From the NCBI GenBank assembly GCA_026391315.1, contig JAPLDT010000013.1, positions 1 to 64,000 on the forward strand: a stretch of 64,000 nucleotides of DNA, read 5' to 3'. A program made the position numbers and the translations under genes. The DNA comes from Bacteroidia bacterium (lineage in GTDB: Bacteria > Bacteroidota > Bacteroidia > Bacteroidales > Prolixibacteraceae). Of this stretch, positions 41,019 through 45,055 are shown one piece after another (positions within the stretch are counted from its first letter, which is position 1; the number at the start of each line of letters is the position of its first letter). The notes beneath the pieces were generated by a model. That model was not told where the DNA came from, did not search any database, and worked only from the letters and a program-made list of their open reading frames with translations.

Positions 41019-42293
41019 ATGAGCCAGACCAGGGAATTAGCAGCCGCTATTGACATCGGCACAAGCCACACCAGAGCAATTCTGGGGCGGTTTACATCAG
41101 ACAATAAGCTTGATGTATTGGCATTCAGTGAAGTGGTTACGCAGGGAGTGCGAAACGGGGTGGTGGTAAACATTGATGATGCCGCCGATTCCATTCGCAA
41201 AGCAGTCTCCGTTCTTGAGCGGGCTACCAACCTGAAGGTGAAGAAGCTGTATGCAGGGATCTCGGGACAAAAAATCGGGAACCGGCCTTACCAGGGGATT
41301 GTGAAAGGCATGTCGGACGAGGCAAGACGTCATGCGGTGCAACCGGGCGAAAAGATATACCATCTCGTACCAACGGAGTACATGGTCGATGGTGAGCGCG
41401 AAATCAACAAACCGGTCGGTATTGCGGGACGGCGGATTGATGCCACCTTCAACATCATCCTTGCCTCCGACAATTACGAGAAGAACCTGACAAGGGCCAT
41501 CGAAAAGGCAGGGTTTGAACTGGCTCTGGTCTTCATCAATCCGTTTGTGCAGGGAACTGCCTGCCTTTCACAGGATGAGAAAGAGGCCGGTGTAGTACTG
41601 CTTGATATGGGCGCCGGCACAACCGGTATTTCCCTCTATTACGAAAATAAATTACGGCTTGCCCTGGAGCTGCCTTTCGGCGGAAACGTGATCTCCAACG
41701 ATATCAAGGAGGGTTGCAACATCATTCCGCGGCATGCGGAAATGGTGAAGGTCAATTGCGGATTCGCCATGACCGAACTCGCCCCTGAAAACAAAGTGGC
41801 GCAGATTCCGGAAGTAGAGGGATGGCCAGGGAAAGAGATCTCCTTCAAAAGCCTTGCGGGGATTATTCAGGCCAGGGTGGAGGAGATCATGGAGTGGGTG
41901 AATTTCCAGCTCGAATCATCCGGGTACGTGGACAAACTGGGCGCAGGCATTGTACTCACAGGGAAAGGAGCAGGACTGAACGGCCTCGATAAGGTGGTGA
42001 GTTACATGACCGGATTGGATGTACGATATGGAAAGCCAATCGTGGCCATGAAAGAGCAGCTGTTTAACGAGCAGCTTGCCACTCCAGCATCCGCTAACCT
42101 TCTTGGTATTCTTATTCACGGTCTGATTAACTCAAGAAACTTAAAATATCCGGCAGGGATGGTCGATCCAATTGTCCAGGAAGAGGCGCCGAAAGCAGAA
42201 CCTGTCAAACGCAAAACCAGAGGCTTTTCTGACCTGGTCGGCAAATTCAAAGATGGTTTCGACAACCTGTTTGAGGAGCCGGATCATAAATAA
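41019..42293 (+). CDS. ftsA: Cell division protein FtsA
   Basis: 424 residues, actin-fold ATPase. LAAAIDIGTSHTRAILGR (phosphate 1), GVVLLDMGAGTTGISLY (phosphate 2), GAGIVLTGKGAGLNGL. The C-terminal FSDLVGKFKDGFDNLFEEP is an amphipathic membrane-targeting helix. It anchors FtsZ to the membrane. Two FtsZ proteins are encoded downstream, raising the question of which tail it binds. Confidence 0.95.
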   Translation: MSQTRELAAAIDIGTSHTRAILGRFTSDNKLDVLAFSEVVTQGVRNGVVVNIDDAADSIRKAVSVLERATNLKVKKLYAGISGQKIGNRPYQGIVKGMSDEARRHAVQPGEKIYHLVPTEYMVDGEREINKPVGIAGRRIDATFNIILASDNYEKNLTRAIEKAGFELALVFINPFVQGTACLSQDEKEAGVVLLDMGAGTTGISLYYENKLRLALELPFGGNVISNDIKEGCNIIPRHAEMVKVNCGFAMTELAPENKVAQIPEVEGWPGKEISFKSLAGIIQARVEEIMEWVNFQLESSGYVDKLGAGIVLTGKGAGLNGLDKVVSYMTGLDVRYGKPIVAMKEQLFNEQLATPASANLLGILIHGLINSRNLKYPAGMVDPIVQEEAPKAEPVKRKTRGFSDLVGKFKDGFDNLFEEPDHK

Positions 42294-42304
42294 AAATAAA
42301 TGAC

Positions 42305-43618
42305 ATGGAAAATATATCTGACGATCTGTTGACATTTGGTTTCAAGAATGAGTACAACTCCATTATCAAAGTGATTGGCGTTGGCGGCGGTGGCAGTAAT
42401 GCCGTCAACCACATGTTTCGGAACGGAATAGCAGGCGTTGATTTTGTCATATGCAACACCGACTCACAGGCCCTGGCCAATAGTTCAGTACCTGTAAAGA
42501 TCCAACTTGGCGTAACCCTCACCGAAGGCCGGGGAGCCGGAAACGCTCCGAAAAAGGGAGAACAGGCGGCCATTGAAAACCTGGGTGAGGTGAGGCAAAT
42601 CCTGGAGGCAGGGACCAAAATGGTCTTTATCACCGCCGGAATGGGTGGTGGAACCGGAACCGGCGCAGCACCTATTATTGCCCAATTGGCGAGAGACATG
42701 GATATTCTGACTATCGCGGTCGTGACCATGCCCTCCAAAAAGGAAGGGAAACTTAGGTACGATCAGGCGATGGAGGGCATTCTGAAACTCGATCGTTACG
42801 TCGATTGTATGCTGGTGATCAGCAACGAGAATTTGCACAAAGTATATGGTGAACTGCCTGCACGCGAGGCATTTGCCAAGGCTGATGATATCGTTTGCAC
42901 CGCAGTGAAGGGATGTGCGGAGATCATTACCCTCCATGGCAACATCAACATCGACTTTGCAGATGTGAACACGGTGATGCGCGACAGCGGCGTCTTTATC
43001 ATGGGAACCGGGTTGGCCGAAGGGTCTAACCGCGCTTTTCTGGCCGTTGAGGATGCGCTGCAGTCGCCATTGCTCGACAGCAACAACATTTATGGAACCG
43101 GGAACATCCTGCTGAACATCATCTCAGGAGAAGAGGAGGTTCGGATGGGTGAGATTGGTCAGATCATCGACTACCTGCAACAGGCTGCGGGCGACAATGC
43201 CAACATCATCTGGGGTAACGGATACGATCCTTCTCTTGGAAACAAGATCAGTGTAACCATCATCGCCACAGGATTTGAACATGATCCAAACCCGATCAGA
43301 AACACTCCCCCTGCTACCGAGAAGGTTGCTCTTGAAAATAATGCCTTCGTGGTAACAGACGAAGTTCCGAAGGTAAACGAAACTGCTTCCGAGCCAGAAG
43401 CGCTGGAGTTGATGGGCATCTCTGTGACGGATGAATATTTCTCTCCTGAAGATGAGCCGGTGGCAGAGCCTGCCAAACCGGTAACGCAGGTAACGGAAAA
43501 TAGGGCAGGAAAGCAGGTAGGGAAAACCGGAAAGAGAACAGAACGTGAATCTATATCGAAATGGTTTAACCAACAGTTTGGCGGACTATTTTCGGACGAG
43601 GATGAGGAGGTAAAATAG
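42305..43618 (+). CDS. ftsZ: FtsZ, first tandem copy (non-canonical tail)
   Basis: 437 residues. Intact GTPase: IKVIGVGGGGSNAVNHM, tubulin signature GGGTGTGAAP (114-123), T7 loop NIDFAD (215-220) with both catalytic Asp. After the core, at about residue 328, an acidic linker leads to the end WFNQQFGGLFSDEDEEVK, which lacks the FLHD-type C-terminal peptide seen in the second copy. Eleven bases after ftsA and 24 before the second ftsZ. The core appears functional; the altered tail suggests different partner binding. Confidence 0.93.
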   Translation: MENISDDLLTFGFKNEYNSIIKVIGVGGGGSNAVNHMFRNGIAGVDFVICNTDSQALANSSVPVKIQLGVTLTEGRGAGNAPKKGEQAAIENLGEVRQILEAGTKMVFITAGMGGGTGTGAAPIIAQLARDMDILTIAVVTMPSKKEGKLRYDQAMEGILKLDRYVDCMLVISNENLHKVYGELPAREAFAKADDIVCTAVKGCAEIITLHGNINIDFADVNTVMRDSGVFIMGTGLAEGSNRAFLAVEDALQSPLLDSNNIYGTGNILLNIISGEEEVRMGEIGQIIDYLQQAAGDNANIIWGNGYDPSLGNKISVTIIATGFEHDPNPIRNTPPATEKVALENNAFVVTDEVPKVNETASEPEALELMGISVTDEYFSPEDEPVAEPAKPVTQVTENRAGKQVGKTGKRTERESISKWFNQQFGGLFSDEDEEVK

Positions 43619-43642
43619 ATAAAAACGAATAAATTACATATT

Positions 43643-45055
43643 ATGAAAGATCTCATAGACTTCGATTTACCAACGGCTTCAGAAAACATCATCAAGGTGA
43701 TTGGGGTTGGCGGGGGCGGCAGCAACGCTGTCAACCACATGTACCGTCAGGGAATCAAGGATGTTGATTTTGCCATCTGCAACACAGATGTTCAGCACCT
43801 GCTCAAGAGTCCGGTACCCGTTAAGGTCCAGCTTGGTTCTGCGCTGACCGAGGGACGGGGTGCTGGGAATAAACCCACTGTCGGTTGCGCATCGGCCAAT
43901 GAAAACATCGAAGAGATCGAGGCGATTTTCACGGGAAATACCAAGATGGTCTTTATCACCGCCGGGATGGGAGGAGGTACAGGTACAGGCGCCGCACCGG
44001 TTATCGCAGAAGTGGCACGTACCAACAAGATTCTCACCATTGGTATTGTGACGCTCCCCTTCCGCAACGAAGGAAAACTTCGCATCCAGCAGGCCATCGA
44101 AGGAATCCGGCAGATGGAGGGACATGTGGACTCACTGCTCATCATCAACAACGAGAGAATCCGTGAGATTTACGGGGATTTTCCTATCTCCCAGGCCTTT
44201 GCCAAAGCCGATGACGTGCTGGCAACTGCGGCAAGAGGCATCGCCGATATCATTACAAGTACCGGATTCATCAATGTCGACTTTGAAGATGTTCGTACGG
44301 TAATGCAAAATTCAGGGGTAGCCATCATGGGATCCGCCACCTTCAGCGGTGAGGACCGTGCACGCAAAGCTGCTGAAGGAGCCCTCAACTCTCCGCTGCT
44401 CAACAACAACGATATCCGTGGCGCCCGGAATATTCTGGTCAACATTACCTCAGGCGAGACCAAGGAGGTCACCATGGACGAGGTAAACCTGGTCAACGAA
44501 TATGTTCAGGAGATGGCCGGAAACAATGCGGACCTTATCCACGGAATCGCAGTAGACCCGACTCTTGGGGATGCCCTGACCGTTACTGTTGTTGCCACTG
44601 GATTTAAAAGCAGTTCAATTCCGGAATTCCGGACCGGTATCGCGGATGAGAAGGTTAGGGTCTCAATCGATGGTGATGCCACGGACAGCAATCACCATTC
44701 ATCAAAATCGGAAACTTTCTTCGCAGGAGAAGTGACCGGCGGACATGAATGGACGGACGATCCGCAGGAGTCGGTCATCAACCGGCTCTATCCCAAGAGG
44801 ATGATCGATCCATTTTCCGGAGCCCCGGAAGTCGTCAAGAAAGTGATGCACGTCGATTTCTACAACCAGACGGAAGAGTACATCAACGAGCTGACAAAAA
44901 TTCCGGCCTTCGAACGACGCAGGATGAAACAACACAAGCCCGGAAATATTACCGACAATGGCAAGTCCATGTCGCGCTATTCCATCACCAACAATCCGGA
45001 AGACGGCCTTAAACTGAGGAAGAACAACTCATTTTTGCACGATAAAGCTGACTAA
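43643..45055 (+). CDS. ftsZ: FtsZ, second tandem copy (canonical Bacteroidota tail)
   Basis: 470 residues. IKVIGVGGGGSNAVNHM, GGGTGTGAAP (110-119), T7 loop NVDFED (211-216). Long linker (about 330-450) then KLRKNNSFLHDKAD, the C-terminal peptide type of Bacteroidota FtsZ. The two proteins share the GTPase core closely but differ strongly in linker and tail, so the duplication is not recent. Last gene of dcw, followed by two REP-like elements. Confidence 0.95.
   Translation: MKDLIDFDLPTASENIIKVIGVGGGGSNAVNHMYRQGIKDVDFAICNTDVQHLLKSPVPVKVQLGSALTEGRGAGNKPTVGCASANENIEEIEAIFTGNTKMVFITAGMGGGTGTGAAPVIAEVARTNKILTIGIVTLPFRNEGKLRIQQAIEGIRQMEGHVDSLLIINNERIREIYGDFPISQAFAKADDVLATAARGIADIITSTGFINVDFEDVRTVMQNSGVAIMGSATFSGEDRARKAAEGALNSPLLNNNDIRGARNILVNITSGETKEVTMDEVNLVNEYVQEMAGNNADLIHGIAVDPTLGDALTVTVVATGFKSSSIPEFRTGIADEKVRVSIDGDATDSNHHSSKSETFFAGEVTGGHEWTDDPQESVINRLYPKRMIDPFSGAPEVVKKVMHVDFYNQTEEYINELTKIPAFERRRMKQHKPGNITDNGKSMSRYSITNNPEDGLKLRKNNSFLHDKAD

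Follow-up and report, generated by a model that had tools for sequence, protein, structure and literature searches.

The window analysed here, a 64,000-nucleotide stretch of a Prolixibacteraceae genome, holds two intact ftsZ genes on the same strand, which lie directly 3′ of ftsA and close the dcw cluster (Table 1). We propose, with a probability of roughly two in three, that the first of these (copy 1) is a natural, self-anchoring FtsZ, predicted from its sequence to bind lipid, standing beside an FtsA-anchored copy 2. Its tail, an FtsA-like amphipathic helix, and the loss of the FtsA-binding peptide make it most likely that copy 1 serves as its own anchor. The original prediction had one copy forming a second filament, modulating the Z-ring or binding a different anchor; the tail evidence carries the third of these forward, refined to a copy 1 that would anchor itself.

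Table 1 Features of the ftsA–ftsZ1–ftsZ2 locus (positions in the window)
Feature	Position	Strand	Evidence
ftsA, actin-like membrane anchor of FtsZ (424 aa)	41019..42293	+	TIGR01174, 274 bits vs cut-off 176
FtsA C-terminal amphipathic helix (FSDLVGKFKDGFDNLF), presumed membrane-targeting sequence	42225..42272	+	Moment 0.72 over 14 aa
ftsZ copy 1 (ftsZ1, 437 aa)	42305..43618	+	TIGR00065, 350 bits vs cut-off 295; AlphaFold core
GGGTGTG GTP-binding loop, copy 1	42644..42664	+	37/37 copy-1 sequences
T7 loop NIDFADV, copy 1, both catalytic aspartates retained	42947..42967	+	37/37 copy-1 sequences; columns invariant
Hypervariable disordered linker, copy 1, without P-A-F/Y-x-R	43280..43546	+	31% identity within genus; pLDDT 35–52
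Conserved amphipathic tail, copy 1 (ESISKWFNQQFGGLFSDEDEEVK), predicted membrane-binding helix	43547..43615	+	87% identity within genus; moments; model; FtsA likeness
ftsZ copy 2 (ftsZ2, 470 aa)	43643..45055	+	TIGR00065, 354 bits vs cut-off 295
GGGTGTG GTP-binding loop, copy 2	43970..43990	+	36/36 copy-2 sequences
T7 loop NVDFEDV, copy 2	44273..44293	+	36/36 copy-2 sequences
Canonical FtsA-binding C-terminal peptide IPAFERRRM, copy 2	44900..44926	+	Motif in 34/35 copy-2 sequences
Terminal peptide NNSFLHDKAD, copy 2	45023..45052	+	34/35 copy-2, 71/118 single-FtsZ, 0/35 copy-1 sequences

Two complete tandem ftsZ genes at the end of dcw, with FtsA directly upstream of the first, had been predicted, and both points were borne out: the two ORFs score above the curated cut-off of TIGR00065, the NCBIfam ftsZ equivalog model, and as whole proteins pass the Pfam Tubulin and FtsZ_C cut-offs, with gaps of 11 bp between the end of ftsA and copy 1 and 24 bp between copy 1 and copy 2. 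Family matches 5′ of ftsA to rsmH, an ftsI-like transpeptidase, murE, mraY, murD, an ftsW-like gene, murG and murC confirm the identity of the dcw cluster; a 250-aa ORF at the ftsQ position had no match in the NCBIfam search. A whole-genome search recovered these two copies as the only FtsZ in the 4.7-Mb genome, and ftsA as its sole strong FtsA match. The best relatives in our scan were from Bacteroidota, and close relatives of copy 1 are present among solved FtsZ structures.

The pair is a fixed trait of the family (taken to be Prolixibacteraceae) and not a local oddity. At least two FtsZ were found in 103 of 108 family genomes, with one in three genomes and none in two; among the single-FtsZ genomes, a run of Ns interrupts copy 1 in G021, and copy 2 of G011 is cut off by a contig end. 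The pair is kept across 22 genera, and wherever family genomes were read, copy 1 was flanked by ftsA and ftsZ2. Prolixibacter bellariivorans (L091), from which the family name is deduced, has the same pair with tails nearly those of family genome G033. Its recurrence in these 103 genomes, every single-contig genome included, rules out an assembly artefact and, together with purifying selection, a decaying copy 1 among relatives with a single ftsZ, the two outcomes that had been named as counting against the prediction. A third FtsZ-like gene (370 aa, strongly diverged) was seen on another contig of family member G023 (L055:2862-3971), with no ftsA found in that stretch.

As originally predicted from the sequence, both copies should be active GTPases that bind and hydrolyse GTP: the GGGTGTG loop and T7-loop aspartates are intact family-wide, the T7 loop reading NxDF(A/E)D in all 37 copy-1 and all 36 copy-2 family sequences. 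The two cores share 49–63% identity, and both copies were shown to evolve under purifying selection, for which dN/dS serves only as an indication, synonymous sites being saturated (pS ~0.74). AlphaFold modelled the FtsZ core of copy 1 confidently, with pLDDT mostly >90.

Beyond the core, the copies part ways. Copy 2 carries the P-A-F/Y-x-R peptide that marks a canonical FtsA-anchored FtsZ, its IPAFERRRM being comparable to DIPAFLRKQAD at the C-terminus of E. coli FtsZ, whereas copy 1 lacks it, with no real case among 35 copy-1 sequences; the one motif match, RPSYQKK, was rejected as spurious. The earlier claim that the tails differ and that copy 2 bears SFLHDKAD therefore stands, but not with SFLHDKAD as the defining peptide, since the FtsA-binding one is IPAFERR; NNSFLHDKAD is common to many single FtsZ of Bacteroidota. 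In place of these, copy 1 has a conserved terminal amphipathic helix (ISKWFNQQFGGLF) with an acidic end; the consensus of this stretch, which follows a linker without sequence conservation, is IDNWFxRQFxxxFxDxD, with W420 and F429 near-invariant. Conservation of this tail, which the original prediction had proposed as a check, was evident within the genus, where the core (92% amino-acid identity) and tail greatly exceed the linker. In the AlphaFold model a helix spans residues 417–425 after the disordered linker, at low confidence (pLDDT 52–58), and no helix is modelled in the ~20 residues that precede the core, so that copy 1 lacks the N-terminal amphipathic helix of Odinarchaeota FtsZ1. Sequence statistics and the model together give copy 1 the terminal amphipathic helix and flexible linker of a self-anchored FtsZ.

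The copy-1 tail resembles, in a way the original prediction did not note, that of FtsA, whose C-terminal helix we take to be membrane-targeting, its position and chemistry being like those of FtsA proteins of known function. A strict motif (helix plus acidic end) caught few tails (9/36 copy-1 and 10/36 FtsA tails, with none in copy 2 or single FtsZ), and hydrophobic moments were therefore used instead. Medians of the largest moment within the last 32 residues were 0.64 (copy 1) and 0.60 (FtsA), compared with 0.35 (copy 2) and 0.38 (single FtsZ), at Mann-Whitney p ~1e-12 and 2e-11. In windows of 14 residues, copy 1 resembled FtsA in moment (0.56 and 0.58), hydrophobicity (0.41 and 0.38) and charge (0 and 0), and a moment >0.45 was reached by 28/35 copy-1 tails and 0/34 copy-2 tails. 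The likeness extends to sequence: copy-1 tails aligned to FtsA tails of the same genome with a mean score of 24.4, compared with 18.1 (SD 0.8) for shuffled copy-1 tails, none of 300 shuffles scoring above 20.4, and 16.5 for copy-2 tails; better matching to the FtsA of the own genome than to that of other genera was marginal (p=0.046). Taken singly, 34% of tails differed from their own shuffles at p<0.05, and FtsA tails themselves reached only 42%; the amphipathic case for copy 1 thus rests on the group comparison. Unlike the basic helix of E. coli FtsA, the copy-1 helix has a net charge of about zero and is followed by an acidic stretch, as is also true of FtsA in the window's lineage.

These properties bear on the main rival, which we consider rather unlikely: that the tail of copy 1 serves to dock a divisome protein and does not bind lipid, copy 1 being tethered by another anchor or itself modulating FtsA. 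The near-invariant W420 and F429 could equally form a binding motif, and the near-zero net charge of the tail is compatible with such a role. Against this reading stand the resemblance to the FtsA membrane helix, in both chemistry and sequence, and tails that vary between families while keeping their amphipathicity, which would be expected of lipid and not of one specific partner. A genome search for SepF as an alternative anchor, moreover, found none.

The FtsZ phylogeny that the original prediction had called for agrees with its view that the duplication is not recent. Within the family, each copy forms a clade of its own (support 100/100 for copy 1 and 99/95 for copy 2, bootstrap 99–100%), and the two clades largely mirror each other in branching, from which we infer that both have been vertically inherited since before the family diversified. 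At 16 sites the copies are fixed for different residues, and single FtsZ side with copy 2 at 13 of them, making copy 2 the conservative copy. These copy-1-specific core changes (S144, F231 and G282 among them), together with a stem of 0.41 for copy 1 compared with 0.12 for copy 2, could also fit a separate cytoskeleton working outside division, in cell shape or membrane deformation, much as archaeal CetZ forms a cytoskeleton with a role outside division. We regard this as improbable given the constant position of the gene between ftsA and ftsZ2, the full set of GTPase motifs and the level of core identity to copy 2. That copy 1 is a redundant or assembly duplicate lacking a distinct function, as the identical 'cell division protein FtsZ' label from the family models might suggest, is refuted by retention across genera as separate, largely matching clades, by strong purifying selection on core and tail, and by mutually exclusive tail types.

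Outside the family, the class beyond the order (237 genomes) has exactly one FtsZ in 236 genomes and none in one, no second FtsZ being found there at E 1e-20, and within the order (Bacteroidales, 393 genomes) most families have a single FtsZ. The same tail split nevertheless recurs in four further families of the order (f23, f102, f32 and f69), where the amphipathic-tail copies lie nearer ftsA and the first copies lack the FtsA-binding peptide. First copies terminate like ITRLVGTLFDDKDD in f23 and like WLKRKIGTLFSDEE in f102; the second copy retains the FtsA-binding peptide in f23, and in f102 has PAFERR without the terminal peptide. In f32 and f69 three ftsZ stand in a row, the first two with different amphipathic tails (for example, QFLINFFDD and WIQTTFDSLF) and the third with the FtsA-binding peptide.

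Several individual loci are recorded here in their own right. Triple ftsZ sets after ftsA were seen at L221, L222, L223 and L224 (genomes G067, G175, G263 and G104), the first two genes with amphipathic tails that differ from each other and the third with both the FtsA-binding and the terminal peptide. In the f102 loci L204–L207, FtsA is extremely diverged, its stem measuring 6.9 changes per column, and the open frame of the second FtsZ (381–387 aa) ends shortly after PAFERR, without the terminal peptide. At L228 (G341, f60) a second FtsZ, in a 519-aa frame, lies ~147 kb from the ftsA-linked one; no ftsA was found beside it, and its tail looks amphipathic (TFVEKVKKRMEQFAFDITQDDDNK). L069 (G051, f16) has a tandem of two strongly diverged FtsZ in which no FtsA-binding peptide is recognisable; the upstream one ends in MQQLIDFFGG plus an acidic stretch.

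Whether these families trace to one event was addressed with topology tests, in which neither a single clade of all amphipathic-tail copies (p-AU 0.08) nor a sister relationship of family copies 1 and 2 (p-AU 0.32) was rejected, so that the FtsZ tree alone fits one duplication or several. The FtsA tree, which contains long branches and does not represent a species tree, groups all multi-FtsZ families in a single clade (100/97) that includes just three single-FtsZ genomes; two changes of the multi-FtsZ label are required on it, a pattern that favours one probable old duplication plus a loss.

FtsA has itself changed in the family (the window, L033–L068 and L091). At FtsZ divergences of 0.22–0.35, FtsA divergence was 0.61 in the family compared with 0.42 in single-FtsZ Bacteroidales, in pairs that are not independent; f23 showed no FtsA acceleration. 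All 37 of 37 family FtsA have another residue in place of the aspartate that follows the phosphate-2 motif (DIGGGTTD), and close single-FtsZ relatives retain this aspartate; its loss was rejected as a mark of the duplication, since Bacteroidaceae-like lineages with a single FtsZ have lost it too. The adenosine motif of the window FtsA reads LTGKGA in place of LTGGxA. The fast evolution of FtsA, the aspartate loss throughout the family and the families with two putatively self-anchored FtsZ tentatively raise the possibility that the Z-ring is tethered to the membrane mainly by a self-anchored FtsZ1, with FtsA relieved of some of its work.

Under self-anchoring of copy 1, an old duplication in this Bacteroidales lineage would have given two FtsZ proteins that share membrane tethering. 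Copy 2 would be the standard FtsZ, held at the membrane via FtsA by its IPAFERR peptide; copy 1 would be a polymerising GTPase in which an FtsA-like amphipathic helix on a flexible linker replaces that peptide, and its filaments may bind the membrane directly through the tail. Both are probably co-transcribed with FtsA and would most likely act in division within one Z-ring, as mixed or parallel filaments. Tethering of bacterial Z-rings is thought to be due to separate anchor proteins, and an FtsZ with its own membrane helix has so far been mainly a man-made tool. Both FtsZ forms beside a single FtsA would offer a natural experiment on direct versus indirect tethering, in a lineage where one can ask whether FtsA is needed once FtsZ holds the membrane itself.

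Searches of the open-licence literature found no paper on ftsZ in Prolixibacteraceae or on a second ftsZ in Bacteroidota, and the open literature searched likewise yielded neither a tandem dcw pair in Bacteroidales with a C-terminal FtsA-like helix nor triple ftsZ sets with two amphipathic-tail copies. Related arrangements are known, reported or predicted elsewhere. Chloroplast FtsZ2 is held through a protein anchor via its C-terminal peptide. For chloroplast FtsZ1, an amphiphilic motif that binds membrane has been reported at the C-terminus (Liu et al. 2022 and An et al. 2024, both cited in PMC12583498). The chloroplast proteins resemble the window pair as two paralogs of which one has its own C-terminal membrane-binding motif, but they belong to a plastid/cyanobacterial lineage with ARC6 as anchor, whereas the window has FtsA and a tandem arrangement in a bacterial dcw cluster. 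In Odinarchaeota, one FtsZ binds the membrane by an N-terminal amphipathic helix and the other via SepF (PMC12583498); the division between an own helix and an anchor protein reached through the C-terminal tail is shared, whereas the N-terminal position, SepF and an archaeal duplication set that pair apart from the C-terminal helix and FtsA found here. Atribacterota have a second FtsZ with a predicted N-terminal amphipathic helix while the other adjoins ftsA (PMC7736352). The shared point is a second bacterial FtsZ with predicted membrane binding, there by an N-terminal extension and from a gene away from ftsA, here by a C-terminal helix in tandem.

Mycoplasma genitalium has a single FtsZ. Direct membrane binding has been reported for it (Dutta et al. 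2025, cited in PMC12583498). It would be, as is predicted for copy 1, a natural bacterial FtsZ with direct membrane binding, but in the window the protein is a paralog accompanied by a canonical FtsZ and by FtsA. The engineered FtsZ-YFP-mts chimera, a standard tool to which a C-terminal amphipathic membrane helix has been added (PMC7320174), is man-made, whereas copy 1 looks like its natural counterpart, coexisting with the canonical form. The window pair is best explained as convergent with the chloroplast and Odinarchaeal FtsZ1/FtsZ2, and would be a further apparently independent split of roles between two FtsZ after those of chloroplasts and Asgard archaea, and the repetition of such splits suggests a general solution. 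A self-anchored FtsZ beside an anchor-bound one is already known; the form it appears to take here, a tandem Bacteroidales pair with a C-terminal FtsA-like helix, is new as far as the open literature searched shows.
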